A stretch of DNA of 64,000 bases from Oceanibacterium hippocampi (GTDB lineage: Bacteria > Pseudomonadota > Alphaproteobacteria > Sneathiellales > Sneathiellaceae). Every line of letters begins with the position of its first letter. Position 1 is the stretch's first letter. The position numbers and the translations under genes are program-made. Shown here one piece after another: positions 2,855 through 16,042 of the stretch. Under the pieces are notes generated by a model that saw only the letters and a program-made list of their open reading frames with translations, made no database searches and had not been told where the DNA came from. The stretch is from NCBI RefSeq assembly GCF_900172325.1, contig NZ_FWFR01000001.1:372001-436000 (forward strand), read 5' to 3'.

Positions 2855-4240
2855 ATGTCCATCAGCAACAAGCATCGCCCGACGACCGCCGAATTGCGCG
2901 CGCTCGACGCGGCCCACCACCTGCATCCGTTCACCGACCATGCCGCGCTCGGCGCCAAGGGCGTGCGCGTCATCGACCGCGCCGAAGGCGTCTATCTGTG
3001 GGATTCGGAAGGCAAGCGCCTGCTCGACGGCATGGCCGGCCTGTGGTGCGTCAATGTCGGCTACGGTCGCGAACGCCTTGCCCAGGTCGCCTTCGAGACG
3101 ATGCGCGACCTGCCGTATTACAACACGTTCTTCCAGACCACCCATGCGCCCGCCGTCGAGCTTGCCGCCAAGATCCGCGAAGTCACGCCGGAGGGCATGG
3201 AACTCGTCTTCTTCGCCTGCTCGGGCTCGGAAGCCAACGACAGCATGGTCAAGTTCGTCCGCTATTTCTGGAACCTGCAGGGCCGCCCCGAGAAGAAGAT
3301 CATGATCAGCCGCAATTCCGGCTATCACGGCGTGACGCTCGCGGCCGCCTCGCTGTCTGGCCTGACGCCGATGCATCCGCAGTTCGACCTGCCGCTGCCC
3401 GGCTTCGAGAAGGTCGACGCGCCCTACTGGTTCCGCGACGGCGGCGACCTCTCGCCGGAGGAATTCGGCCTCAAGGCGGCGGCCAGCCTGGAAACGAAGA
3501 TCCTCGAACTCGGCGCCGGCAATGTCGCCGCATTCGTCGCCGAGCCGATCCAGGGCGCCGGTGGCGTCATCATTCCGCCGGCGACCTACTGGCCCGAGAT
3601 CCAGCGGATCTGCGACAAGCATGATGTCCTTCTGGTCGCCGACGAAGTGATCTGCGGGTTCGGCCGGACCGGCAACTGGTTCGGCTGCGATACCTTCGGG
3701 ATCCGCCCCGACATCATGACGATGGCGAAGGGCATGTCGTCCGGCTACCAGCCGATTTCGGCGGTGGTGCTGGGCGGCCGCGTCGCCGCGGCGATCGGCG
3801 GCGCCGACGAGGAGCTTTCGCACGGCTTCACCTATTCCGGACATCCGGTGACCGCCGCCGTGGCGCTCGAGAATATCCGGATCATCGAGGAAGAAGATCT
3901 TGTCACCCGGGTGCGTGAGGATATCGGCCCCTACCTCCAGCAGGGTCTGCAGAGTCTCGCCGACCATCCGCTGATCGGGGAGGTTCGCGGCATCGGCCTG
4001 CTCGGCGCGCTCGAACTCGTCGCCGACAAGGCGACGCGGAGCCGTTTTCCGGCCGACCGGAGCGTCGGAATGATCTGCCGGGACCATTGCTTCGGCAACG
4101 GACTGGTGATGCGCGCGGTCGGCGATACCATGGTCGTCTCGCCGCCGCTGACGATCAGTCGCGAGGAAGTCGACGAGCTCGTCAGGCTGGCCCGGACTGC
4201 CTTCGACCTGACCGCGCGCGACCTCGGCGTGAGCGCCTGA
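2855..4240 (+). CDS. Class III PLP aminotransferase, putrescine/omega-amino acid:pyruvate type
   Basis: A 461-residue fold-type I class III aminotransferase. Typical segments are the N-terminal HHLHPFTDH region, VYLWDSEGKRLLDGMAG, the FACSGSEAND cofactor loop, LVADEVICGFGRTG (Asp contacting the PLP pyridine nitrogen), and MTMAKGMSSGYQPISA with the Schiff-base lysine at about residue 292. It most resembles SpuC/YgjG-like and omega-amino acid:pyruvate transaminases that accept putrescine, GABA or beta-alanine. It sits between the glutamylation genes and the potFGHI importer, so it probably removes an amino group from putrescine or a product of it. The exact substrate cannot be read from sequence. 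Confidence 0.8.
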   Translation: MSISNKHRPTTAELRALDAAHHLHPFTDHAALGAKGVRVIDRAEGVYLWDSEGKRLLDGMAGLWCVNVGYGRERLAQVAFETMRDLPYYNTFFQTTHAPAVELAAKIREVTPEGMELVFFACSGSEANDSMVKFVRYFWNLQGRPEKKIMISRNSGYHGVTLAAASLSGLTPMHPQFDLPLPGFEKVDAPYWFRDGGDLSPEEFGLKAAASLETKILELGAGNVAAFVAEPIQGAGGVIIPPATYWPEIQRICDKHDVLLVADEVICGFGRTGNWFGCDTFGIRPDIMTMAKGMSSGYQPISAVVLGGRVAAAIGGADEELSHGFTYSGHPVTAAVALENIRIIEEEDLVTRVREDIGPYLQQGLQSLADHPLIGEVRGIGLLGALELVADKATRSRFPADRSVGMICRDHCFGNGLVMRAVGDTMVVSPPLTISREEVDELVRLARTAFDLTARDLGVSA

Positions 4241-4345
4241 TCGCGCTCGATGGTGCGTTGCAAAAGGGGGAGTTGACAGCCGGCCCGGACTGACCGCAAT
4301 GATTGCAGCAGACGGCAATTTCCCCGGCAGGAATGGGAGAGAGAA

Positions 4346-5440
4346 ATGGCAAATCCGGCGGGATCGCTCGTTGCAGCGGTCGGCCTTCTGGCACTGACAA
4401 GTTCCATCGCTCTCGCCGAGGGCGTTGTCCATGTCTACAACTGGTCGGACTATATCGATGAAGAGATCCTCAGCGATTTCGAGCAGGAAACCGGCATCAA
4501 GGTCGTCTACGACGTCTTCGATTCAAACGACATCCTCGAAACCAAGCTGCTGACCGGCGGCACCGGCTACGACGTCGTCGTGCCGACCGGCACCTTCCTC
4601 AACCGGCAGATCCAGGCCGGCGTTTTTCAGCCGCTCGACAAGTCGAAGCTGCCGAACATCGCCAATATGGACCCGGCGATCATGAAGCGGGTCGCGATCC
4701 ATGATCCGGACAACAAGTATGCCGTCAACTACATGTGGGGCACGACCGGCATCGGCTACAATGTCGACAAGATCAAGGAGCGCATGCCCGATGCCCCGGT
4801 CGACAGCTGGCGCATGATCTTCGATCCCGAAGTGGTGTCGAAGTTCGCCGATTGCGGGATCCAGATCCTCGATGCCGCGGACGAACTGATCCCGGCGGCG
4901 CTCAACTATATCGGCGAGAATCCCGACAGCCACGATCCCGACGTGATCGCAAAGGCAGAGCCGGTACTGAAGGCGATCCGGCCCTATATCTCGAAGTTCC
5001 ACTCCTCCGAATATATCAGCGCGCTCGCCAACGGCGACATCTGCCTGGCGGTCGGCTGGTCCGGCGACGTGCTGCAGGCCCGCGACCGTGCCGCCGAGGC
5101 CGGCAACAATGTCTCTGTCGAATACACCATCCCGAAGGAAGGCACCCTGATGTGGTTCGACAATCTGGCCATCCCGGCCGATGCGCCGCATCCGGACAAT
5201 GCCCTTGCATTCATCAACTACCTGATGCGCCCGGAGGTCATCGCCAAGGCGACCAACTACGTCTACTACGCCAACGGCAACAAGGCGTCGAAGTCGCTGG
5301 TCGATCCGGAAGTCACCGGCGATCCGGCCATCTATCCCAGCGACGAGGTCGTCGACAGGCTCTACGTCACCACCCCCTATGACCGCAAATCGCAGCGCAT
5401 CGTGACGCGCCTCTGGACCAATCTGAAAGCCAACCAGTAG
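4346..5440 (+). CDS. potF: Periplasmic putrescine-binding protein (PotF/SpuD type)
   Basis: A 364-residue extracellular solute-binding protein of the polyamine family. The N-terminus carries a Sec signal peptide (VGLLALTSSIALA, cleavage about residue 24), followed by the family opening VVHVYNWSDYIDEEIL. YDVVVPTGTF, VNYMWGTTGIGYN and AVGWSGDVLQA are polyamine-pocket segments shared with PotF/SpuD. GGGAGAGAGAA precedes the ATG, and a -35-like TTGACA lies at 4273 upstream. The gene leads potFGHI and is separated from potG by a strong hairpin, a common way to express binding protein in excess of permease. Putrescine versus spermidine preference is inferred from neighbours. Confidence 0.87.
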   Translation: MANPAGSLVAAVGLLALTSSIALAEGVVHVYNWSDYIDEEILSDFEQETGIKVVYDVFDSNDILETKLLTGGTGYDVVVPTGTFLNRQIQAGVFQPLDKSKLPNIANMDPAIMKRVAIHDPDNKYAVNYMWGTTGIGYNVDKIKERMPDAPVDSWRMIFDPEVVSKFADCGIQILDAADELIPAALNYIGENPDSHDPDVIAKAEPVLKAIRPYISKFHSSEYISALANGDICLAVGWSGDVLQARDRAAEAGNNVSVEYTIPKEGTLMWFDNLAIPADAPHPDNALAFINYLMRPEVIAKATNYVYYANGNKASKSLVDPEVTGDPAIYPSDEVVDRLYVTTPYDRKSQRIVTRLWTNLKANQ

Positions 5441-5449
5441 GATCGAGAG

Positions 5450-5474
5450 GGCGCCCGGTCGGCGACCGGGCGCC
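5450..5474 (+). terminator. Strong hairpin between potF and potG
   Basis: GGCGCCCGGTC and GACCGGGCGCC form a perfect 11-bp stem with a 3-nt loop, 9 bp after the potF stop. No T-run follows, so it more likely protects the potF 3' end or attenuates than fully terminates. The same GCGCCCGGTC core appears in a second hairpin at 9247-9279. Confidence 0.6.
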
Positions 5475-5506
5475 GGATCTTCCGGCACGACTTGCGGAGG
5501 GGGCCC

Positions 5507-6661
5507 TTGACCGCGCGCGCGACCGAACCGACCAAGAAGAAGAAATGGGCGCCGTGGTCGGATCCGGAGGCCGAACCCTTCATCCGACTGGTCGACGTCA
5601 GCAAGCGCTTCGGCGATTTCCTCGCGGTCGACAATATCTCGCTCGATATCTACCGCAGCGAGTTCTTCGCCCTTCTCGGGCCATCGGGTTGCGGCAAGAC
5701 GACCCTGCTCCGGATGCTGGCGGGCTTCGAGAAGCCGACCTCCGGACGCATCGAGATCGATGGCGTCGACATGGCGGACGTTCCACCCTACGAGCGCCCG
5801 GTCAACATGATGTTCCAGTCCTATGCGCTATTTCCGCATATGACGGTTGAGCAGAATATCGCTTTCGGGCTGCGCCAGGACCGGGTCCCGCGGGACGAGA
5901 TCGCCCGCCGGGTCCGGGAGATGCTGGACCTCGTCCAGCTCGGGCCACTCGCCAAGCGCAAGCCGCACCAGCTCTCCGGCGGCCAGCGCCAGCGCGTCGC
6001 GCTCGCCCGCAGCCTGGTCAAGCGGCCGAAGATGCTGCTACTCGACGAACCGCTCGGCGCGCTCGACAAGAAGCTCCGCGAGAAGACCCAGTTCGAACTG
6101 GTCAACATCCAGGAGGAGACCGGGATCACCTTCGTCATCGTCACGCATGACCAGGAAGAGGCGATGACCGTCTCGTGCCGGATTGCGGTCATGAACCAGG
6201 GCCGTGTCGTACAGGCGGCAACGCCGACCGAAGTCTACGAGTTCCCCAATTCGCGCTACGTCGCGGAGTTCATCGGCGACGTCAATATCTTCGAGGGGCG
6301 GGTTACCGAATCGGGTGCCGACCATGCCGTGATCGGCGCGCCGGAAGCAGACTGCCGCTTCCGGATCGACCACGGCATATCGGCCAACGTCGAGGCCACC
6401 GTCTGGCTCGCGCTCCGACCCGAGAAGATGGTGATCGGCAAGACCCCGCCCGAGGATCCCACCGTCAACTGCATCAGCGGTGTGGTCTGGGACATCGGCT
6501 ATCTCGGCAACCTCTCGATTTTCCATGTCCGGCTCGATTCCGGCAAGACCGTGACCTCCATTCGCACCAATCGCAGCCGCGAGACCGAGCTCGACATCAC
6601 CTGGGAGGACCGGGTCTACCTGACCTGGGCACCCGGCGCGGTCGCGGTGCTGATGACATGA
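5507..6661 (+). CDS. potG: Polyamine ABC transporter ATP-binding protein
   Basis: A 384-residue ATPase of the PotA/PotG type. The N-terminal ABC domain has Walker A GPSGCGKTT (about 58-66), signature LSGGQ (156-160), Walker B LLLDEP (177-182) and the H-loop VTHDQEEAM. A C-terminal TOBE regulatory domain (LALRPEKM) follows from about residue 285. The TTG at 5507 is chosen as start because GGAGGGGG ends four bases upstream; an in-frame TTG at 5492 lies ahead of that ribosome-binding site. It energises uptake through PotH and PotI. The stop overlaps the potH start by 4 bp (ATGA), indicating translational coupling. Confidence 0.87.
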   Translation: MTARATEPTKKKKWAPWSDPEAEPFIRLVDVSKRFGDFLAVDNISLDIYRSEFFALLGPSGCGKTTLLRMLAGFEKPTSGRIEIDGVDMADVPPYERPVNMMFQSYALFPHMTVEQNIAFGLRQDRVPRDEIARRVREMLDLVQLGPLAKRKPHQLSGGQRQRVALARSLVKRPKMLLLDEPLGALDKKLREKTQFELVNIQEETGITFVIVTHDQEEAMTVSCRIAVMNQGRVVQAATPTEVYEFPNSRYVAEFIGDVNIFEGRVTESGADHAVIGAPEADCRFRIDHGISANVEATVWLALRPEKMVIGKTPPEDPTVNCISGVVWDIGYLGNLSIFHVRLDSGKTVTSIRTNRSRETELDITWEDRVYLTWAPGAVAVLMT

Positions 6662-7677
6662 ATACGGGTAAACGCCCGGTAGCCGCCTATGTCGACCGCC
6701 AGGCATCGACCCCGCCGGGCGGCCGGCTGGAATCGGTGCACCGGGCGATGATGGCCTACCGGGTCTATCGCTGGTTCGCCCTCATCGGCGACAAGTTCGG
6801 CATCAGCGGCCAGACGCTGGTCATCGCGATCCCGTTCATCTGGCTGCTGCTGTTCTTCCTGGCGCCGTTCCTGATCGTGCTGAAGATCAGTTTCGCCGAA
6901 CCGCTGACGGCGATCCCGCCCTACAGCCAGCTCTGGCAATGGGACGGCGAGACGCTGGCGATCCATCTCAACCTGTATAACTACATCTTCCTCGGCGAGG
7001 ATGACCTGTACTGGCGGGCCTACCTGTCGAGCATCCGGATCGCCGGGATTTCGGCGCTGTTGACGCTGCTTGTCGGCTATCCGCTTGCCTATGCGATGGC
7101 ACGCGCGCCGGCGTCCTGGCGGCCAACCCTCGTGATGCTGGTCATCCTGCCCTTCTGGACCTCGTTCCTGATCCGCGTCTATGCCTGGATCGGCATCCTG
7201 AAGCCGGAGGGACTGCTCAACCTGCTGCTCAGCTGGCTCGGCCTGATCGACCAGCCGCTGACGATCCTGAACACCAATACCGCGGTCTATATCGGCATCG
7301 TCTATTCCTACCTGCCCTTCATGGTCCTGCCGCTCTATGCCAACCTGGAGAAGATGGACCTGAGCCTGCTGGAAGCGGCGGCCGATCTCGGCTGCCGGCC
7401 GATCAAGGCATTCTGGCTGGTGACCGTGCCGCTCTCGGTGCCGGGCATCATCGGTGGCCTGCTGCTGGTCTTCATCCCGGCGGTCGGCGAGTTCGTCATT
7501 CCCGACCTGCTCGGCGGCTCGGAAACGCTGATGATCGGCAAGACGCTCTGGTCGGAATTCTTCAACAACCGCGACTGGCCGCTCTCGAGCGCGGTCACCG
7601 TCATCCTGCTCGGCATCCTGCTGGTTCCGATCGTCTACTTCCAGCGCCAGCAGGCGAAAGCGGCGGAGCGGGCCTAG
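6658..7677 (+). CDS. potH: Polyamine ABC transporter permease PotH
   Basis: A 339-residue inner-membrane permease with about six membrane helices after a cytoplasmic N-terminal extension (first helix about 55-80). The EAA-loop region MDLSLLEAAADLGCRPIKAF contacts the ATPase. The ATG lies in the ATGA overlap with potG. The open frame extends far upstream of 6658, but that part is out-of-phase shadow of potG. Together with PotI it forms the heterodimeric channel for putrescine delivered by PotF. Confidence 0.86.
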   Translation: MNTGKRPVAAYVDRQASTPPGGRLESVHRAMMAYRVYRWFALIGDKFGISGQTLVIAIPFIWLLLFFLAPFLIVLKISFAEPLTAIPPYSQLWQWDGETLAIHLNLYNYIFLGEDDLYWRAYLSSIRIAGISALLTLLVGYPLAYAMARAPASWRPTLVMLVILPFWTSFLIRVYAWIGILKPEGLLNLLLSWLGLIDQPLTILNTNTAVYIGIVYSYLPFMVLPLYANLEKMDLSLLEAAADLGCRPIKAFWLVTVPLSVPGIIGGLLLVFIPAVGEFVIPDLLGGSETLMIGKTLWSEFFNNRDWPLSSAVTVILLGILLVPIVYFQRQQAKAAERA

Positions 7678-8499
7678 ATGTTCAACCGGCTCACCCCGTT
7701 CAACGTCACCGCGCTCGCCTTCGGCTACGCCTTCCTCTACCTGCCGATCGTGATCCTGGTGATCTTCTCGTTCAACGAGTCACGGCTGGTGACGGTCTGG
7801 GCCGGCTTCTCGACCAAGTGGTACGTCTCGCTGTTCGATAACACCAAGATCATGGACGGCGCCTGGACGACGCTGCGGATCGCCTTCATATCGTCGACCC
7901 TGGCGCTGGTCTTCGGTACCCTTGCCGGCCTGGCGCTCGCGCGCTTCACGCAGTTCCGGGGCCGTACGCTGTTTTCCGGAATGGTCGCGGCGCCGCTGGT
8001 GATGCCCGAGGTGATCACCGGGCTCTCGATGCTGCTGCTGTTCGTCGCGCTCGACTGGACGCGCGGCATCGGCACGATCACCATCGCGCATACCACCTTC
8101 GCGATGGCCTATGTCGCGGTCGTCGTGCAATCCCGACTTGTCACCTTCGACCGCTCGATCGAGGAGGCGGCGCTCGACCTGGGGGCGACGCCGGCGAAGA
8201 CCTTCTTCGTCATCACCCTGCCGATCATCGCGCCGGCGCTCGTTGCCGGCTGGCTGCTTTCCTTCACGCTCTCGCTCGACGACCTGGTCATCGCCTCGTT
8301 CACCTCGGGCCCCGGCGCGACCACCCTGCCGATGGAGATCTACAGCATGGTGCGGCTCGGCGTGACGCCGGAAATCAACGCGGTCTCGACGATCCTGGTC
8401 GGCATAGTGACCGTCGGCGTGCTGATTGCCAGCGTGCTCCAGAAGCGCGCGGCCCTGCAGCGCATCGCCGACGAAAGGCTGGCCCAGGCGAGCGAGTGA
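7678..8499 (+). CDS. potI: Polyamine ABC transporter permease PotI
   Basis: A 273-residue permease with about six membrane helices and the EAA motif SIEEAALDLGATPAKTF. The ATG directly follows the potH stop codon TAG, so the two permeases are co-translated. Segments GFSTKWYVSLF and FTLSLDDLVIASFTSGPG are typical of PotI/PotC. This is the last gene of the polyamine unit; the next gene, a MarR regulator, converges on it 28 bp away. Confidence 0.86.
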   Translation: MFNRLTPFNVTALAFGYAFLYLPIVILVIFSFNESRLVTVWAGFSTKWYVSLFDNTKIMDGAWTTLRIAFISSTLALVFGTLAGLALARFTQFRGRTLFSGMVAAPLVMPEVITGLSMLLLFVALDWTRGIGTITIAHTTFAMAYVAVVVQSRLVTFDRSIEEAALDLGATPAKTFFVITLPIIAPALVAGWLLSFTLSLDDLVIASFTSGPGATTLPMEIYSMVRLGVTPEINAVSTILVGIVTVGVLIASVLQKRAALQRIADERLAQASE

Positions 8500-8527: not shown

Positions 8528-9055
8528 TCAGGAGGCGCCGTTGCCGTTCAACTTCTTCAGGAGCGCGATCAGTTCGGCACGCTCGCCCGCGTCGAGGGCC
8601 TCTGTCACGCCCTCGTCATGGGCCCGGACATCGCCGGCAAGCACATCGTAGAGCGTCTCGCCCTGCGGGCTCAGATGGAGCGCGTAGGACCGCCTGTCGT
8701 TCGGAGCGGGCCGGCGCTCGACGAGCCCGCGCTTTTCCAGCCGGCCGATCACGGCAACGACGGTCGAGCGATCGACCCCCATCGCCTGACCGAGGTCGCT
8801 CTGGTTGAGGCCGGCATTGCGATGGATGATCGTCAGCACGCCGAACTGGCCCGGCGTGATCCGGTGCCGCTCGATCCTGCGGGCGAAATCCTGGAACACG
8901 AGAACCTGGGCGCGCCGAATGTTGTAACCGACAAGTTCGGGCAGGATTCCGAGATCGAACCCCCGTTGCGCCCGCTGGTCCGCCGCCGATCCGGGGCGCG
9001 CCGGCTCCTCTTTCCCGCCGGGCGACGATCTGTCCTGGCCTGTCCGTTCCTGCAC
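8528..9055 (-). CDS. MarR-family transcriptional regulator
   Basis: A 175-residue winged-helix repressor. After a charged, low-complexity N-terminus, the helical core starts near residue 33 (FDLGILPELVGYNIRRAQ). The wHTH follows (ITPGQFGVLTIIHRNAGLNQSDLGQ, then RSTVVAVIGRLEKRGLVERRPAPNDRR), where the DRR beta-wing is diagnostic of MarR. The start is GTG at 9055, preceded by GGAGAG. It is transcribed away from the ferredoxin-reductase/gentisate block, and a MarR-like palindrome lies about 100 bp upstream, so it probably represses that block until an aromatic ligand binds. The ligand is unknown. Confidence 0.8.
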   Translation of the reverse strand: MQERTGQDRSSPGGKEEPARPGSAADQRAQRGFDLGILPELVGYNIRRAQVLVFQDFARRIERHRITPGQFGVLTIIHRNAGLNQSDLGQAMGVDRSTVVAVIGRLEKRGLVERRPAPNDRRSYALHLSPQGETLYDVLAGDVRAHDEGVTEALDAGERAELIALLKKLNGNGAS

Positions 9056-9154
9056 CCTGTTGCTCTCCGTTCTCGGCTTTCACCCGGCAATTCAATTCTC
9101 GACGACAGCTGATCGCATCGGCGCACTGGCTTTTTCGTGCTTTCTGTACTATAA

Positions 9155-9165
9155 CTATCGGATAG
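9155..9165. promoter_or_regulatory. MarR-like operator palindrome
   Basis: CTATC-G-GATAG is a perfect inverted repeat in an AT-rich island (TACTATAACTATCGGATAGG) that resembles both a -10 region and a MarR box. It is 100 bp upstream of the marR start and 250 bp upstream of the reductase gene. The whole 9056-9416 gap (361 bp) contains this site, the hairpin at 9247-9279, and no gene I can support. Confidence 0.4.
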
Positions 9166-9246
9166 GATTTTGGGTGACCAGACCGACCCCAATTTCCCTC
9201 AGGCGAACGAGTTTCCCCTCCCTTCGCCTGTACTCGGCAACGAGCG

Positions 9247-9279
9247 GAGCGCCCGGTCGATCCCCCTGACCGGGCGCTC
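9247..9279 (+). terminator. Orphan 12-bp hairpin in the marR/reductase gap
   Basis: GAGCGCCCGGTC and GACCGGGCGCTC pair perfectly around the loop gatccccct; CTAGCCTCATTTTC follows. A terminator-like hairpin between divergent genes has no obvious gene to terminate. It may end a short leader or small RNA started near the AT-rich site at 9150, or act as a structural element. Confidence 0.45.
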
Positions 9280-9416
9280 TAGCCTCATTTTCACCGCTAC
9301 CGACGGGAAGACAAGTGCCGGCTGTAGCGTTCGCAGATATTGTTGGCCTGCCAAACATTAGTTGACAGCCTCGGGCCGCCCGCGTTTTATCGTCACAGGC
9401 ACGGACGAGGCTATTG

Positions 9417-10448
9417 ATGTCGTACAGGGTCAGGATCCGACAGTCGGAGACGCCGCTCGAGGTGGCGATGGGACAGACGATCCTCGAGGCCGCGCTCGAG
9501 GCCGGGATCTCCTATCCCTGCGGCTGCCGGTCCGGGAACTGCGGTGCCTGCAAGTCCCGGCTCTTTGAGGGCGACGTCGAGATGTCGCCCCATTCCCCCT
9601 ATGCGCTGAGCAAGGAGGAACGGAAGGCCGGCTTCATCCTGGCCTGCCGTTCGGTCCCGTGGAGCGATTGCGATGTCGCCTGGAACGAGCCCGACGAGCT
9701 GCCCCAGCATCCGCTCCGGCGGCTGACCTGCCGGGTCTGCGGGCTGGACGCGCTTACCCATGATATCCGTCGCGTCCGACTGGAGATCGTCGAGGGCGGC
9801 CCCTTCGATTTTTCTGCCGGGCAATATGCCTCGCTCGCCTTCAACGGGCACCCGCCGCGGGACTACTCGATGGCCGGCGCGCCCGGCGACGAGGTCCTGG
9901 AATTTCATGTCCGCGCGGTCGAAGGCGGCGGGGTCAGCGCTTTCGTCGCCCGGGAACTGGCCCCCGGCGATCGCGTGATCGTCGAGGGTCCGCACGGCAT
10001 CGCGCAGCTCCGCGAGGGTCATCGCGGGCCGATCCTGGCACTTGCCGGCGGCTCGGGGCTGGCGCCGATCCGCTCCATTGTCCGCCGCGCCCTCGATCTC
10101 GGTTTTGCCCAGCCCATTCACTGCTATCTCGGCGTGCGCGACGAGCGCGACGTCTACGGCGAGGCGGAATTCCGCGCGCTCGCCGAGCAGCACGGGAATT
10201 TCAGCTTCACCGTGGTGCTGTCCGAGCCGAGCGCCCCGACCGAGCGGCGGACCGGATATCTCGCCGACATCGTCGCCAGCGACTTCGCCAACCTCGACGG
10301 GGCCAAGGCCTACCTCGCCGGACCGCCGGTGATGGTCGAGACCTGCGTTCGCAAGCTGGAGGCAGCAGGCCTCGCGCCTGAGGACTGCCACGCCGACGCC
10401 TTCTACACGGAAGCCGAGAAACAAGCGCTGGAGGCAGCCAATGGCTGA
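9417..10448 (+). CDS. 2Fe-2S/FAD/NAD(P)H oxidoreductase, probable oxygenase electron-transfer component
   Basis: A 343-residue reductase with an N-terminal plant-type ferredoxin domain (Cys 37, 42, 45 and 77 in PCGCRSGNCGAC...ACRS), an FNR-type FAD domain (GQYASLAF, RDYSMAG) and a C-terminal NAD(P) domain (LALAGGSGLAPIRSI, YLAGPPVMVE). This order matches BenC- and DmpP-like reductases that feed electrons to aromatic oxygenases; PaaE has the reverse order. The ATG at 9417 follows GACGAGG. It overlaps the SDR gene by 8 bp, and a di-iron oxygenase lies two genes on, so its likely partner is that protein. Confidence 0.8.
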   Translation: MSYRVRIRQSETPLEVAMGQTILEAALEAGISYPCGCRSGNCGACKSRLFEGDVEMSPHSPYALSKEERKAGFILACRSVPWSDCDVAWNEPDELPQHPLRRLTCRVCGLDALTHDIRRVRLEIVEGGPFDFSAGQYASLAFNGHPPRDYSMAGAPGDEVLEFHVRAVEGGGVSAFVARELAPGDRVIVEGPHGIAQLREGHRGPILALAGGSGLAPIRSIVRRALDLGFAQPIHCYLGVRDERDVYGEAEFRALAEQHGNFSFTVVLSEPSAPTERRTGYLADIVASDFANLDGAKAYLAGPPVMVETCVRKLEAAGLAPEDCHADAFYTEAEKQALEAANG

Positions 10449-11376
10449 CGGTCCCCTTCTCCTCGACGGCCGGGTCGCCATCGTGACCGGCGCCGCCCGC
10501 GGCATCGGCGCGGCCATCGCCCGCACGCTCCATGATCAGGGCGCGGCCGTGGTGATCGCCGACAGCGGCACCGGGATCGACGGCCAGGGCGCCGATCCGG
10601 CCCCGGCCAGGGCGCTTGCCGCCGAACTCGGCCCGCGCGCCGCGGCCTTCACCGAAAGCGTGGCCAGCCCGTCCGCAGCCGCCGCCCTGGTCGAGAAGGC
10701 GGTGGCGACCTTCGGTGCACTCGACATCGTCGTCAACAATGCCGCGATCCTGCGCGACGGCTTCATCTTCAAGCAGGATCCGGGCGACTTCGAGGCCGTG
10801 CTCCGCAACAACCTGTTCGGCGCCTGGTACCTGCTGAACGCGGCAACCCCGAGAATGCGCGACCAGGGCAAGGCCGGCCGGGCACCCGGCAGCCTGCTCA
10901 ACATCATCTCGACGGCCGGCCTCTACGGCAACTTCGGACAGGCCGCCTATGCCTCCGCCAAGGCCGGGCTGGTCGGTCTGACGCGGGTCGTCGCCCTTGA
11001 CCTGCAGCGTGCGGGCATCACCTGCAACGCGCTGGCGCCATTCGCGGCGACCCGCGTGACCGATACGATCCGGCCGGCGAACCCGGCGCAGGAAACCTAC
11101 AAGACACGGGCGATGAAACTCGATCCGCGCCACGTGGCGACGGTTGCCGGCTGGCTCGTGTCACCGCTCGCCGCGACCGTCAGCGGCCAGGTTTTCGCGG
11201 TGCGCGGCCGCGAGGTCTTCCTCTTCAACCAGTCCCGCCCGGAGCGGCGGCTGGCGAGCGCGCACGAGGACTGGCGGATCCAGAGCCTCGCCGACGCGGC
11301 CGACGCCGCCTTTGCCGACGGCTATACCGCCCTCGAAACCGATCTCGAGGCCTTCAGTTCAGAACCCCTCATTTAG
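10441..11376 (+). CDS. Short-chain dehydrogenase/reductase
   Basis: A 311-residue classical SDR. The Rossmann glycine motif TGAARGIG is at 16-23, the NNAAIL segment at 99-104, and the catalytic Ser 157, Tyr 170 and Lys 174 are present (YASAK). The C-terminal extension beyond residue 250 (VFLFNQSRPERRLAS...) resembles the hydroxyacyl-CoA dehydrogenase branch (MFE-2/HSD17B4-like) more than FabG, hinting at a CoA-thioester or ring-derived alcohol substrate. It overlaps the reductase gene by 8 bp and is 11 bp before the di-iron oxygenase gene. The substrate is unknown. Confidence 0.72.
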   Translation: MADGPLLLDGRVAIVTGAARGIGAAIARTLHDQGAAVVIADSGTGIDGQGADPAPARALAAELGPRAAAFTESVASPSAAAALVEKAVATFGALDIVVNNAAILRDGFIFKQDPGDFEAVLRNNLFGAWYLLNAATPRMRDQGKAGRAPGSLLNIISTAGLYGNFGQAAYASAKAGLVGLTRVVALDLQRAGITCNALAPFAATRVTDTIRPANPAQETYKTRAMKLDPRHVATVAGWLVSPLAATVSGQVFAVRGREVFLFNQSRPERRLASAHEDWRIQSLADAADAAFADGYTALETDLEAFSSEPLI

Positions 11377-11387
11377 GGAGAACCGGG

Positions 11388-12098
11388 ATGAGCAACGCCG
11401 ACCCGATCAAGACCTGCCACGACCTGGAAAGGGAACCGGAAGAGTTCCAGACGGCGGTCAGGAAGCTCGTCGTCAGCCACGCGGTGAACGAGCTCTACGG
11501 CGCCCAGGTGTTCGACGAACCGGCAATCGCGCTGGCCCCCACGCCCTATGCGAAGTGGTTGACCTGCCGCGTCGCGATGGAGGAATACGGCCATCACGTC
11601 CGTTTCCGCGAGCTCGGCGAGGAGCTCGGCGTCCCGGCCGCGGAGATGACGCCGGAACACAAGCAGCCGCTTTCGATCTTCGAATTCCCGCTCGAGACCT
11701 GGGCGCAGTTCTGCGTCATCAAGCTGCTGGCCGATCTCGCCGAGATCCTGCAGGTCGAGGACCTGGCCCATTGCCGCTTCCTGCCGCTCCGCAACCTCGC
11801 CCGCATGACGATGCCGGAGGAACGGTTCCACGCCCAGTTCGGCAAGGATTTCTGCACCGAGCTGTGCCAGACCGAGGAAGGCCGCCTCGAGGTCCAGGCG
11901 GCGATCGACCATTATTTCCCGATGCTGCCGCCCTTCTTCGGTCGCAGCCGGTCGAAGAACAACGAGATCTATCTGAAATACCAGATCAAGCAGCGTAGCA
12001 ACGACGAGATGCGAGCAGATTTCATGTCACGCGCGCGGACGGTCGTCGAGGACGAACTGGGCTTGAAACTTCCCGAGGTCGCGGCCACGGTGAACTGA
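11388..12098 (+). CDS. PaaA/PaaC-like ferritin-fold di-iron oxygenase
   Basis: A 236-residue helical protein with a full set of candidate di-iron ligands in the order E, ExxH, E, ExxH: Glu 35, Glu 66/His 69 (MEEYGHH), Glu 119 (DLAEIL) and Glu 145/His 148 (PEERFHAQFG). The last motif is the PaaA/PaaC family signature. PaaA normally works with PaaB, PaaC and PaaE on phenylacetyl-CoA. Here only one such subunit is present, with a reductase, an SDR and gentisate dioxygenase as neighbours. It may hydroxylate an aromatic acid or its CoA ester on the way to gentisate; that is inference. GGGAGAACCGGG precedes the ATG. Confidence 0.7.
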   Translation: MSNADPIKTCHDLEREPEEFQTAVRKLVVSHAVNELYGAQVFDEPAIALAPTPYAKWLTCRVAMEEYGHHVRFRELGEELGVPAAEMTPEHKQPLSIFEFPLETWAQFCVIKLLADLAEILQVEDLAHCRFLPLRNLARMTMPEERFHAQFGKDFCTELCQTEEGRLEVQAAIDHYFPMLPPFFGRSRSKNNEIYLKYQIKQRSNDEMRADFMSRARTVVEDELGLKLPEVAATVN

Positions 12099-12143
12099 CG
12101 GGGCGCGCAGGCTCCGGCAGGCACGAACAAGCGAGAGACGAAC

Positions 12144-13193
12144 ATGGCAACGGCGAAGCAGACATCGATCGAGGACGCGCGACAGGATTTCTACGACCGC
12201 ATGTCGCCGGGCAACATGACGCCGCTCTGGCAAGTCCTGCATTCGCTGGTGACGCCCGAGCCGAGTTCGACCTGCGAAAGCGCGATCTGGCATTATGACG
12301 AGGTCCGTCCCTTCATCGAGGAAGCGGGCAACATCATCACCGCCGAGGAGGCCGAGCGTCGGGTTCTCATTCTCGAAAACCCGGGCCTGCGCGGCCAGTC
12401 GCGCATCACCACCAGCCTCTATGCCGGCCTTCAGCTCATCCTGCCCGGCGAGATCGCGCCCTCGCACCGGCATACCCAGAGCGCGCTCCGCTTCGTGGTC
12501 GAGGGCGAAGGCGCATATACCGCCGTCGACGGCGAACGGACCATCATGCGCGAGGGCGATTTCGTCATCACGCCGACCTGGACCTGGCACGACCATGGCA
12601 ACGAGACCGACCGGCCGATGGTCTGGATGGACGGCCTCGACATCCCGATGATCCAGTTCTTCGACGCCAGCTTCGCGGAACGCTATCCGGAACCGGAACA
12701 TCCGATCAGCCGGCCGGTCGGCGATTCGGAGGCCCGCTACGGCGCCGGCCTGCTGCCCGACGGCTACAGGAATGCCGGCCCGTCGTCGCCGGTCTTCAAT
12801 TATCCCTATGCCCGTACCCGCGAGGCCCTGGAGCAGATGCGCCGGCGCGCGGAATGGGACCCCTGCCACGGTCTCCGCATGCGCTATGTGAACCCGGTCA
12901 ACGGCGACTACGCGATGCCGTCGATCGCGACTTTCATGCAGCTTCTGCCGGCGGCTTTCGAAACCGCCCCCTACCGGTCCTCGGACGGCATCGTCTTCTC
13001 GGTCGTCGAGGGGCACGGCGAAACCCGGATCGGCGACCGGGTCTATCAATGGGGACCGCGCGACATCTTTGTCATTCCCTCCTGGACCTCGTATGTTCAC
13101 GTCGCCAGCGAGGATGCAGTGCTGTTCTCCTTTTCCGACCGCGTCGTGCAGGAGAAGCTCGGATTCTGGCGCGAAGACCGTAGCCGGAACTGA
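12144..13193 (+). CDS. Gentisate 1,2-dioxygenase-like bicupin
   Basis: A 349-residue double-cupin ring-cleavage dioxygenase. The N-terminal cupin carries the metal site: His 108 and His 110 in APSHRHTQSALRFVVEGEG and His 149 in TWTWHDHGN. A second cupin (FSVVEGHGETRIGD, DIFVIPSWTSY) lacks these ligands, as usual for GtdA. The enzyme opens gentisate to maleylpyruvate with Fe(II). Genes for maleylpyruvate isomerase and fumarylpyruvate hydrolase are not in this window, so completion would need genes elsewhere. 1-hydroxy-2-naphthoate or salicylate dioxygenase activity is the main alternative, since these share the fold. Confidence 0.8.
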   Translation: MATAKQTSIEDARQDFYDRMSPGNMTPLWQVLHSLVTPEPSSTCESAIWHYDEVRPFIEEAGNIITAEEAERRVLILENPGLRGQSRITTSLYAGLQLILPGEIAPSHRHTQSALRFVVEGEGAYTAVDGERTIMREGDFVITPTWTWHDHGNETDRPMVWMDGLDIPMIQFFDASFAERYPEPEHPISRPVGDSEARYGAGLLPDGYRNAGPSSPVFNYPYARTREALEQMRRRAEWDPCHGLRMRYVNPVNGDYAMPSIATFMQLLPAAFETAPYRSSDGIVFSVVEGHGETRIGDRVYQWGPRDIFVIPSWTSYVHVASEDAVLFSFSDRVVQEKLGFWREDRSRN

Positions 13194-13209: not shown

Positions 13210-13806
13210 ATGCGCTTCGACGACGATTTTGACGAAGAGGAACTGCCCGACCCGGCCGAGTATCCGACGCTGGTCGCGGTCGCCCGCTTCACCCGCCTGA
13301 TCCCGGCGGTGCCGTGGTTCGCCGCGGTCGGCGAGACGATCGGTCTGCAGGACCGGCAGGAAGCGGAATCCTACTGCTCGGCACTGGGCTTTCCCGGCGC
13401 CGACGTGGCCCTCGTCCCGGACTGGCACGAGGCGGAAAACGTCGCCCGGAACCCGGACTGGAACGATTCCTGGTGGGAGCAGGAGGAACAGCTTCGCGTC
13501 GGGCTGATCGCCGATGCCTGCGAGTTCCTGCCCGAGCACGAGTTGATGACCGCGCTGACCCATGTCACCAGCGTCGCCTCGGACCATGTTCACGGCGCCG
13601 CCGCGATCGCCGCCCAGCATGGCGGGATCGGCGACGAGGCCCTGGTCCGCGCCGCCGCCGGCGCGGCCACCCAGGCGTGTTACCAGGCAGCGCTCGTGCT
13701 TGCCGCAGGGGCCGACGACGAGCATTGCTTCGCCATCAAGTACCGTCTGTTCGAGGCCGGGCGCTGGCCGCTCGGGATCATCGGCTCGACATTCAGTCTG
13801 TTCTGA
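13210..13806 (+). CDS. Conserved-looking protein of unknown function
   Basis: A 198-residue, acidic, mostly helical protein that I do not recognise. It starts with a run of acidic residues (DDDFDEEELPDP), has a tryptophan-rich centre (DWNDSWWEQEEQL) and ends in helices rich in Ala and His (HVTSVASDHVHGAAAIAAQHGG). No signal peptide or clear membrane helix is visible. It starts 16 bp after the gentisate dioxygenase and ends 38 bp before xth, so it could belong to either transcription unit. Codon use and lack of overlap support it as real; no function is proposed. Confidence 0.6.
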   Translation: MRFDDDFDEEELPDPAEYPTLVAVARFTRLIPAVPWFAAVGETIGLQDRQEAESYCSALGFPGADVALVPDWHEAENVARNPDWNDSWWEQEEQLRVGLIADACEFLPEHELMTALTHVTSVASDHVHGAAAIAAQHGGIGDEALVRAAAGAATQACYQAALVLAAGADDEHCFAIKYRLFEAGRWPLGIIGSTFSLF

Positions 13807-13844: not shown

Positions 13845-14648
13845 ATGCGCATCGCCAGCTGGAATATCAATTCGGTCCGCGCGCGGATCGGCCATGTCGA
13901 GCGCTTCGTGAAGGAATTCGCGCCCGACATCCTGTGCCTGCAGGAAACCAAGGTCGCCGACGACGGCTTCCCGACCCGCGCCTTCGCCGACCTGGGCTAC
14001 AGCGCCCACGTGGTGGCCGGCCAGAAGAGCTACAACGGCGTGGCGATCTTCTCGCGCGTGCCGATCGAGGTGACCGGCGGTCGCGACTGGTGCGGCCGCT
14101 ATGACGCCCGGCATATCTCGGTGATCATTCCCGGCGACATCGAGCTGCACAATTTCTACGTCCCGGCCGGCGGCGACATTCCCGACCGGGCCGAGAACGA
14201 GAAATTCGGCCACAAGCTCGATTTCCTGACCGAGATGAGCGAATGGTTCGCCACCGCGCGCCGCGCCGGCGACCGCATGATCATGCTCGGCGACCTGAAT
14301 GTCGCGCCGCACGAAAGCGATGTCTGGTCGCACAAGGCGCTGCTCAAGGTGGTCAGTCACACGCCGATCGAGGTCGAGCATCTGGAAGCCGTGCAGCAGG
14401 CGGCCCGCTGGTGCGATGCCGCCCGCCATTTCCGCCCGGTGCCGGAGAAACTCTACAGCTGGTGGAGCTATCGCTCGCCCGACTGGGAAGGCTCGGACAA
14501 GGGCCGGCGGCTCGACCATATCTGGGTGACCGAGCCGCTCGTCGGCGCCATGACCGGTTTCGACATCCCGAAGGAACCGCGCCGCTGGGAGAAGCCGTCG
14601 GACCACACACCGGTCATCCTCGATCTCGATCCAGACCGCGCCGCATGA
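13845..14648 (+). CDS. xthA: Exodeoxyribonuclease III
   Basis: A 267-residue exonuclease-endonuclease-phosphatase enzyme for base-excision repair (AP endonuclease and 3'-5' exonuclease). The family path is complete: ASWNINSVRAR at the N-terminus, CLQETKV with the metal-binding Glu, a LGDLNVAPHESD segment, and the catalytic DHTPVILDLD at the C-terminus (SDH motif). Length is normal. Its stop overlaps the next gene by 4 bp (ATGA). In many alphaproteobacteria it follows lolA directly; here about 13 kb of catabolic genes intervene. Confidence 0.9.
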   Translation: MRIASWNINSVRARIGHVERFVKEFAPDILCLQETKVADDGFPTRAFADLGYSAHVVAGQKSYNGVAIFSRVPIEVTGGRDWCGRYDARHISVIIPGDIELHNFYVPAGGDIPDRAENEKFGHKLDFLTEMSEWFATARRAGDRMIMLGDLNVAPHESDVWSHKALLKVVSHTPIEVEHLEAVQQAARWCDAARHFRPVPEKLYSWWSYRSPDWEGSDKGRRLDHIWVTEPLVGAMTGFDIPKEPRRWEKPSDHTPVILDLDPDRAA

Positions 14649-16042
14649 CGGCCGACCTCGCACCCTTCTTCGAGCCCCGCTCGGTCGCCGTCGTCGGTGC
14701 CGGTGAGCGGGCGACCTCGTCGGGGGGCGCGGTCCTGCGCAACCTGCGGATCGGTGGCTATTCCGGCGAGATCATTCCGGTCAACCCGAAGGGCGGCACG
14801 ATTCTCGGCCTGCCTGTGAAGGCGAGCCTGCGCGACCTGGCGGAACCCGCCGATCTCGCCATCATCGTGATCCGTCCGGACCTGATCCCGGAAGCGGTCG
14901 AGGACGCGGCGGCAAGCGACCACCGCAACCTGCTGATCCTGCCCGGCGGCTTCACGGAATCCGGGCCCGAAGGCATCGCCCGCGACAAGCAGGTGCGCGC
15001 GATCGCCGCGCGGGCGGGCATCCGGATCGCCGGACCAAACTGCGCCGGCATCATCCATATCGGCCCGCGCATGAAATTCGGCGGGACTTTCCTGCGCGAT
15101 TTTCCACCCGGCGGCTCCATCGCCATGATCTCGCAGTCGGGCGCGCTTGCCGAGGAGGCAATCGCCTTCGCCAACGATCACGCGCTGAAGCTCGGCACTG
15201 TGGTTACCGTCGGCAACGCGATGCATCTCGGGATCACCGAGTATCTCGACTATCTGGGCGACCGGGACGAGGTCGGCGGCCTGCTGATCTACGCCGAGTC
15301 GGTCAGCGACCGGGACGCGTTCACCCGTGTCGCCCGCCGCGTCGCGGCGCGCAAGCCGATCGTCATGCTGGTCGGCGGCCGCGGCCCGGCCGGCATCGCC
15401 GCGGCGCGCGCCCATACCGGCGACGCGATTGGCGGCGAGGCGGCGATCGACGCCTTCTGCGAGGCCGCCTGCGCGATCCGCGCCCGGTCGCTGCGTCACC
15501 TGCTGCTCGCCGCCAAGGGTTTCGGCTTCTATCCCGACGGGATCGGCGGCCGGGTCCTGATCCTGTCCAATTCCGGCGGCCCCGGTGTCATCGCGACCGA
15601 CCGCGCCGAGGCCGAGACGCTGCAGTTGCCGGCCCTGCCGGCGGCGATGGCGGCGGCGCTTCGCGCCCGCCTGCCGGGCGAGGCGTCGGTCGCCAACCCG
15701 GTCGACCTGTTGGCCGATGCCCGCGAGGACCGCTTCGGCGAGGCCTTCGGGCTCGCTCAGGCGCATGGTCCCGGCACGTTCGACGCGGTGCTAGGCATCC
15801 ATGTCGTGCCCTTCATGGTCGACGCCGACCCGGTCGTCGCCCGCCTTGTCGCCCTCGCCGGACAGGCGAAGCTGCCCTTCTTCCACGCCATGATGGGCAC
15901 CCTGCCCAAGAAGGCCGAATGGTTCGCCGCCCTCGAGGCGGCTGGCGTACCGGCCTTCAACGACGTCGAGGCGATGGCTGAAGTGGCCGGGCTTCTAGCC
16001 CGCTACCCGGCGCTGAAAGCGCGCGCTCAGGCCGCCTCGTAA
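14645..16042 (+). CDS. Acyl-CoA synthetase (NDP-forming)-like protein lacking the ATP-grasp domain
   Basis: A 465-residue protein with a CoA-binding Rossmann domain (PRSVAVVGAG, then VNPKGGTILG), a succinyl-CoA-ligase-like flavodoxin domain (SQSGALAEEAIAF), and a third domain with RAHTG and LILSNSGGPGVIATD. The HTG histidine matches the phosphorylated residue of Acd-type synthetases. The ATP-grasp beta domain is absent and no beta subunit gene is adjacent, so the protein either uses a partner encoded elsewhere or has another role. Translation is coupled to xth (ATGA), and the 3' end overlaps the converging methyltransferase gene by 16 bp. Confidence 0.7.
   Translation: MTADLAPFFEPRSVAVVGAGERATSSGGAVLRNLRIGGYSGEIIPVNPKGGTILGLPVKASLRDLAEPADLAIIVIRPDLIPEAVEDAAASDHRNLLILPGGFTESGPEGIARDKQVRAIAARAGIRIAGPNCAGIIHIGPRMKFGGTFLRDFPPGGSIAMISQSGALAEEAIAFANDHALKLGTVVTVGNAMHLGITEYLDYLGDRDEVGGLLIYAESVSDRDAFTRVARRVAARKPIVMLVGGRGPAGIAAARAHTGDAIGGEAAIDAFCEAACAIRARSLRHLLLAAKGFGFYPDGIGGRVLILSNSGGPGVIATDRAEAETLQLPALPAAMAAALRARLPGEASVANPVDLLADAREDRFGEAFGLAQAHGPGTFDAVLGIHVVPFMVDADPVVARLVALAGQAKLPFFHAMMGTLPKKAEWFAALEAAGVPAFNDVEAMAEVAGLLARYPALKARAQAAS

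Follow-up and report, generated by a model that had tools for sequence, protein, structure and literature searches.

Described routes to gentisate include those that rely on the flavin enzyme 3-hydroxybenzoate 6-hydroxylase or the Rieske enzyme salicylate 5-hydroxylase, as well as flavin-dependent routes through 4-hydroxybenzoyl-CoA and salicylyl-CoA. To our knowledge, the hydroxylases that form gentisate are flavin or Rieske enzymes. The upper pathways feed gentisate 1,2-dioxygenase (GDO), and their CoA-dependent variants consist of a ligase, a hydroxylase, and a thioesterase. The flavoprotein or Rieske character of the known gentisate hydroxylases (general knowledge; PMC3572157) contrasts with the predicted di-iron, PaaA-type protein of the locus described here.

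PaaA belongs to the PaaABCE phenylacetyl-CoA epoxidase. Its iron ligands are E42, E72, H75, D126, E155, and H158, and its lysine bridge is formed by K68 with E49 (PMC4498308). BoxB, the benzoyl-CoA epoxidase, is a di-iron aryl-CoA oxygenase that works without a structural subunit (PMC4498308), a precedent that makes partner-free di-iron catalysis plausible and not new.

The window analyzed here, a 64,000-nucleotide stretch of the Oceanibacterium hippocampi genome, encodes a PaaA/BoxB-type oxygenase (OXY) that is, as predicted and pending biochemistry, coupled to a gentisate pathway. The operon probably represents the upper part of a gentisate pathway that is CoA-dependent and employs a di-iron aryl-CoA oxygenase. 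The chances appear slightly better than even that the PaaA-fold oxygenase, a short-chain dehydrogenase (SDR) of the MFE-2 type, and the conserved protein c6 turn an aryl-CoA into gentisyl-CoA with no flavin or Rieske hydroxylase involved, in a widespread and previously undescribed route. No paper linking PaaA-like proteins to gentisate formation was found among the open-access papers searched.

Gene content and regulatory region

The original prediction singled out five genes at 8528–13193, and comparisons with Pfam, NCBIfam, and PDB bore out their positions and families (Table 1). The conserved unit exceeds these five genes, with c6 and an acyl-CoA synthetase gene downstream and a candidate operator upstream. 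No flavin or Rieske gene is found within the core reductase-SDR-OXY-GDO unit.

Table 1. Features of the locus in window coordinates.
Feature	Position	Strand	Remarks
MarR-family regulator	8528–9055	-	Divergent from operon; PF01047, 66 bits
Candidate MarR operator, TTGTTGGCCTGCCAAACAT	9340–9358		19-bp palindrome; consensus TTGTTTG-N5-CAAACAA
NADH:[2Fe-2S]/FAD reductase, BenC/MmoC architecture	9417–10448	+	Pfam Fer2, FAD_binding_6, NAD_binding_1
SDR dehydrogenase, MFE-2/hydroxyacyl-CoA dehydrogenase type	10441–11376	+	Best PDB relative 2et6
OXY, predicted PaaA-like di-iron oxygenase, 236 aa	11388–12098	+	PF05138
GDO, gentisate 1,2-dioxygenase, bicupin	12144–13193	+	TIGR02272
c6, conserved helical protein, no Pfam family	13210–13806	+	Profile homologues downstream of OXY
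ADP-forming acyl-CoA synthetase alpha subunit, candidate CoA-activating enzyme	14645–16042	+	TIGR02717

The reductase open reading frame spans 9414–10448, its first codon being followed by an ATG at 9417; the protein has its [2Fe-2S] domain at the N-terminus, then FAD and NAD domains. Among named models, BenC and MmoC fit the reductase best, both scoring under the equivalog cut-off (for BenC, 183 bits against 430), and its cluster cysteines are invariant in 72–73 loci. The PDB entry nearest to the SDR (2et6, E 1e-58) comes from the peroxisomal multifunctional enzyme MFE-2, specifically its dehydrogenase part, which is of the (3R)-hydroxyacyl-CoA dehydrogenase type. Residues S157, Y170, K174, and D41 of the SDR are all invariant across loci, and D41 lies at the end of strand β2, a position at which Asp usually means NAD+. 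The S-Y-K residues together with D41 would fit the oxidation of a ring-hydroxylated CoA-thioester intermediate.

GDO scored 570.2 bits against TIGR02272, above the curated cut-off of 442.1. In the PDB it matches 2d40 best, a putative gentisate 1,2-dioxygenase, and its HxH + H motif is invariant in 52 loci. The same genome encodes a second cupin dioxygenase (L170:9457–10617; 288 bits against TIGR02272, below the cut-off), which adjoins an FAA hydrolase and a DctP-like gene. The acyl-CoA synthetase alpha subunit matched TIGR02717 at 350 bits, below the cut-off of 567, and no beta subunit gene adjoins the alpha gene in the window. An exonuclease III-like gene (13845–14648), which recurs in L041 and L049, lies between c6 and the synthetase gene. 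Upstream of the MarR gene, a class III aminotransferase and a putrescine-type ABC transporter (PotF-like) are encoded at 2855–8499; these genes look like polyamine-use genes unrelated to the operon.

A palindrome with at most two mismatches lies upstream of the reductase gene in 39 of 63 loci, against 0.15 expected from mononucleotide shuffles. The copy in the window is the sole site in the 4.8-Mb genome at no more than one mismatch to the degenerate pattern; the whole-genome scan revealed no other operator sites and no wider regulon. This single operator-like site suggests that the divergent MarR protein is tied to this operon alone, presumably by binding there. MarR would repress the operon from this one operator and would probably be released by an aryl-CoA. 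A perfect 12-bp G+C-rich inverted repeat (9247–9279) occupies the middle of the MarR-reductase intergenic region, and a scan for sigma-70 promoters and terminators gave nothing above chance.

The PaaA-like oxygenase and its partners

OXY scored 99.1 bits against the PaaA_PaaC superfamily PF05138 (gathering threshold 28.5) and 80.3 bits against the PaaA equivalog TIGR02156, far below its cut-off of 280; the BoxB model TIGR03225 was not among its NCBIfam matches at E 0.001. The AlphaFold model of OXY (pLDDT 95) matched PaaA best (Z 27.8, rmsd 1.9 Å over 232 residues), followed by the Sulfolobus SSO1313 protein, PaaC, and BoxB (Z 22). Alignment with PaaA gave E35, E66, H69, D116, E145, and H148 as predicted iron ligands, which are invariant in 81 loci, as is E119. 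All six positions of the E/ExxH/E/ExxH set first read from the sequence are present, with the correction that Asp116, and not a Glu, takes the fourth position.

The fold, the six ligand positions, and, by prediction for OXY, reductase dependence are common to PaaA and OXY. The two proteins are only 26% identical, however, and OXY has no PaaB or PaaC and a shorter C-terminus. PaaA E49 corresponds to an invariant D43 in OXY, while the position of PaaA K68 corresponds to OXY position 62, which is Val or Ile in 81 loci, so that the lysine bridge is not kept. Unlike PaaA, OXY has the SDR, c6, and GDO as its partners. BoxB resembles OXY in its di-iron, PF05138-like fold and, as predicted for OXY, in needing no structural subunits, but it is about twice as long, uses the BoxA reductase, and is carried by OXY genomes in addition to OXY. 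The OXY clade has support of 93/90 in a tree whose deeper branches are long and unreliable. A second lone PF05138 family, OXY2 (L055–L058), is about 32–37% identical to OXY and has its own adjoining BenC-type reductase; in contrast to OXY, it has neither SDR nor c6 and forms a separate clade. In L055, a benzoate-CoA ligase above the cut-off is encoded near OXY2, and all four OXY2 genomes are GDO-positive.

The genome containing the window (4.8 Mb, 99.4% complete) has one gene above the PF05138 cut-off, OXY itself, and two weak matches, one of them inside BoxB. A whole-genome search found no second PaaA/PaaC-type gene above the cut-off and no PaaB. In a class sample of 385 genomes, 23 carried OXY at 66–100% identity, with the next best matches falling to 36%; PaaB is absent from 21 of these 23 and present in two. 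The possibility that the missing Paa partners are encoded elsewhere, raised with the original prediction, was pursued genome-wide, and because neither PaaB nor another PaaA/PaaC-type gene was found in the genome, it does not hold here. The description of OXY as a lone oxygenase stands with respect to PaaB and PaaC but has to be qualified by c6, which follows OXY at a distance of no more than 2.3 kb in 59 of 68 loci.

Profile searches identified c6 homologues in 67 of 80 loci, or 68 with the window included; their start codons were assigned by rule. The c6 gene is an overlooked component of the conserved unit. No convincing Pfam family match was found in 55 c6 members. The predicted c6 model (pLDDT 95) has the RhsI2 immunity protein as its best fold match (Z 11.9, the next being Z 4), and PaaB, PaaC, and ferritins were not among the fold matches listed. 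A hidden PaaC- or PaaB-like subunit was considered and rejected, given that RhsI2 is the only stand-out fold match and that c6 has no Pfam family. c6 may still act as a partner of OXY, and analogy with the assembly and effector proteins of multicomponent monooxygenases suggests that c6 may be an accessory protein.

Distribution and co-occurrence with gentisate dioxygenase

A scan of GTDB genomes yielded 221 confirmed OXY relatives, the best 80 of which were kept. The gene block named in the original prediction was recovered as a conserved unit in these 80 further loci, so the gene grouping is not due to chance. The loci span the Alphaproteobacteria (Reyranella, Vineibacter, Desertibaculum, Iodidimonas, and marine and soil MAGs) and also occur in MAGs labelled Betaproteobacteria, Polyangiaceae, and other groups. 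Among loci with enough flank, window included, the SDR gene is directly upstream of OXY in 78 of 79, the reductase gene is directly upstream of the SDR gene in 70 of 73, and GDO is directly downstream of OXY in 45 of 76. Within the best 80 of the 221, a MarR homologue is nearby in 52 loci, an ADP-forming CoA synthetase is present in 36 (directly after c6 in several marine loci), an FAA hydrolase in 28, TRAP transporter parts in about 20, and 4HBT-type thioesterases in about a third. CoA-activating genes accompany 32, and thioesterases 24, of the 47 fully flanked loci. Reyranella-type loci have an alpha/beta hydrolase in place of GDO. PaaA-like plasmid genes of Alteromonas and Variovorax were examined and set aside, as their neighborhoods differ and are without GDO. 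Another PF05138 arrangement occurs at L062:8020–12002, where two PaaA-like genes of different lengths are accompanied by ORFs that cluster with hydratase-like and PaaK-like neighbors.

GDO above the curated cut-off was found in all 23 OXY genomes of the class sample and in 38 of the 362 others (Fisher p 6e-21; this and the following co-occurrence counts are uncorrected for phylogeny); OXY presence predicts GDO presence. In two sampled Reyranella-type genomes, GDO lies elsewhere on the chromosome. BoxB is present in 22 of the 23 OXY genomes. Among BoxB-positive genomes, GDO occurs in 22/22 with OXY as opposed to 30/59 without it (p 1e-5), and among GDO-positive genomes the association of OXY with BoxB is not significant (p 0.13). 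In the family to which the window belongs, four genomes have BoxB and lack both OXY and GDO.

Substrate, proposed pathway, and alternatives

In MarineAlpha9 (1.6-Mb genome; L134, with the near relative L132), seven genes form one contiguous run encoding the reductase, SDR, OXY, GDO, c6, an AMP-forming ligase, and a 4HBT thioesterase. The nearest PDB relatives of this ligase are anthranilate- and benzoate-CoA ligases, and its nearest models are HbdA and benzoate-CoA ligase, below the cut-offs of both. The L045 thioesterase is closest to 4-hydroxybenzoyl-CoA thioesterase. The window genome encodes a benzoate-CoA ligase (740 bits) near BoxB, and MarineAlpha9 has, apart from its operon ligase, a benzoate-CoA ligase near BoxB that is 46% identical to that enzyme. 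The separate ligase near BoxB suggests that the acid served by the operon is probably not benzoate, and benzoate is likewise an unlikely OXY substrate because a box pathway of its own exists in nearly all of these genomes (22 of 23).

Of the substrates originally proposed, free acids appear unlikely and CoA esters most likely, because CoA thioesters are what PF05138 and BoxB oxygenases act on where the activity is known, and because genes for CoA ligases and 4HBT thioesterases occur in related operons. A hydroxybenzoyl-CoA is favored in view of the benzoate-CoA ligases near BoxB, with benzoyl-CoA as the main rival. Several observations count against the CoA-dependent pathway: the window has no adjoining thioesterase, and of a CoA synthetase it encodes just the alpha subunit, GDO is non-adjacent in about 40% of loci (Reyranella type), and simple hydroxylation of hydroxybenzoyl-CoA needs no SDR.

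In the proposed pathway, an aromatic acid (not benzoate, but in all likelihood a hydroxybenzoate) would be activated to its CoA thioester, and OXY would oxygenate the ring with electrons from the BenC-type reductase. The SDR probably re-aromatizes a hydroxylated, de-aromatized CoA-thioester intermediate by oxidation, yielding gentisyl-CoA, from which a thioesterase would release gentisate for cleavage by GDO. The accessory protein c6 would perhaps act as an assembly or effector factor. The claim of a new route is narrowed by BoxB, which is already known as a partnerless aryl-CoA oxygenase, so that only the gentisate-forming use would be new. If the pathway is correct, OXY would add a third chemical type to the enzymes that form gentisate. 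Many uncultured Alphaproteobacteria of soils and the sea would carry it concealed by a "PaaA-like" annotation, and their aromatic-acid degradation would have been misread. OXY would also be a single-subunit descendant of the Paa/Box type that hydroxylates with the ring kept aromatic, as opposed to epoxide-based ring opening, and the conserved c6 family, which Pfam does not cover, would gain a testable role.

Alternatively, OXY may act on benzoyl-CoA, with epoxidation and water addition leading to a 2,5-dihydrodiol that the SDR oxidizes to gentisyl-CoA, as an alternative to box. This scheme provides a clear job for the SDR, requires a single oxygenation, and agrees with the benzoate-CoA ligase type of the L050/L134 ligase, although the latter falls below the family cut-off. 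It is nonetheless unlikely, as BoxB is already present in 22 of 23 OXY genomes and both genomes examined have a dedicated benzoate-CoA ligase in the box region, which gives benzoyl-CoA an outlet already. There is a similarly small chance that OXY, SDR, and c6 serve another aromatic or alicyclic CoA-thioester pathway and that GDO is merely a frequent neighbor. The lower adjacency of GDO than of the SDR (45/76 vs. 78/79) and the alpha/beta hydrolase of Reyranella-type loci are consistent with such a pathway, but GDO above the curated cut-off in all OXY genomes, Reyranella-type included, argues against it.

Salvage of box by-products, namely phenolic rearrangement products of 2,3-epoxybenzoyl-CoA such as hydroxybenzoyl-CoAs, would account for the frequency of BoxB in OXY genomes; it is quite improbable in view of the nonsignificant OXY-BoxB association among GDO-positive genomes and of the loci having their own transporters and ligases. 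Least probable is direct hydroxylation of a free aromatic acid, which would suit the free-acid substrate of GDO and the window's lack of a complete adjoining CoA ligase or thioesterase but conflicts with the CoA-thioester substrates of PaaA and BoxB, the functional relatives of solved structure that the fold search returned, and with the CoA-activating and thioesterase genes of the fully flanked loci.

A haloarchaeal gentisate cluster (Halosolutus, L147) was considered as a precedent for the CoA-dependent gentisate pathway proposed here and rejected: its oxygenase is an FAD monooxygenase, and it has no PaaA-like gene. What it shares is a GDO gene beside an ADP-forming CoA synthetase and an FAA hydrolase, and its synthetase is 27% identical to that of the window.
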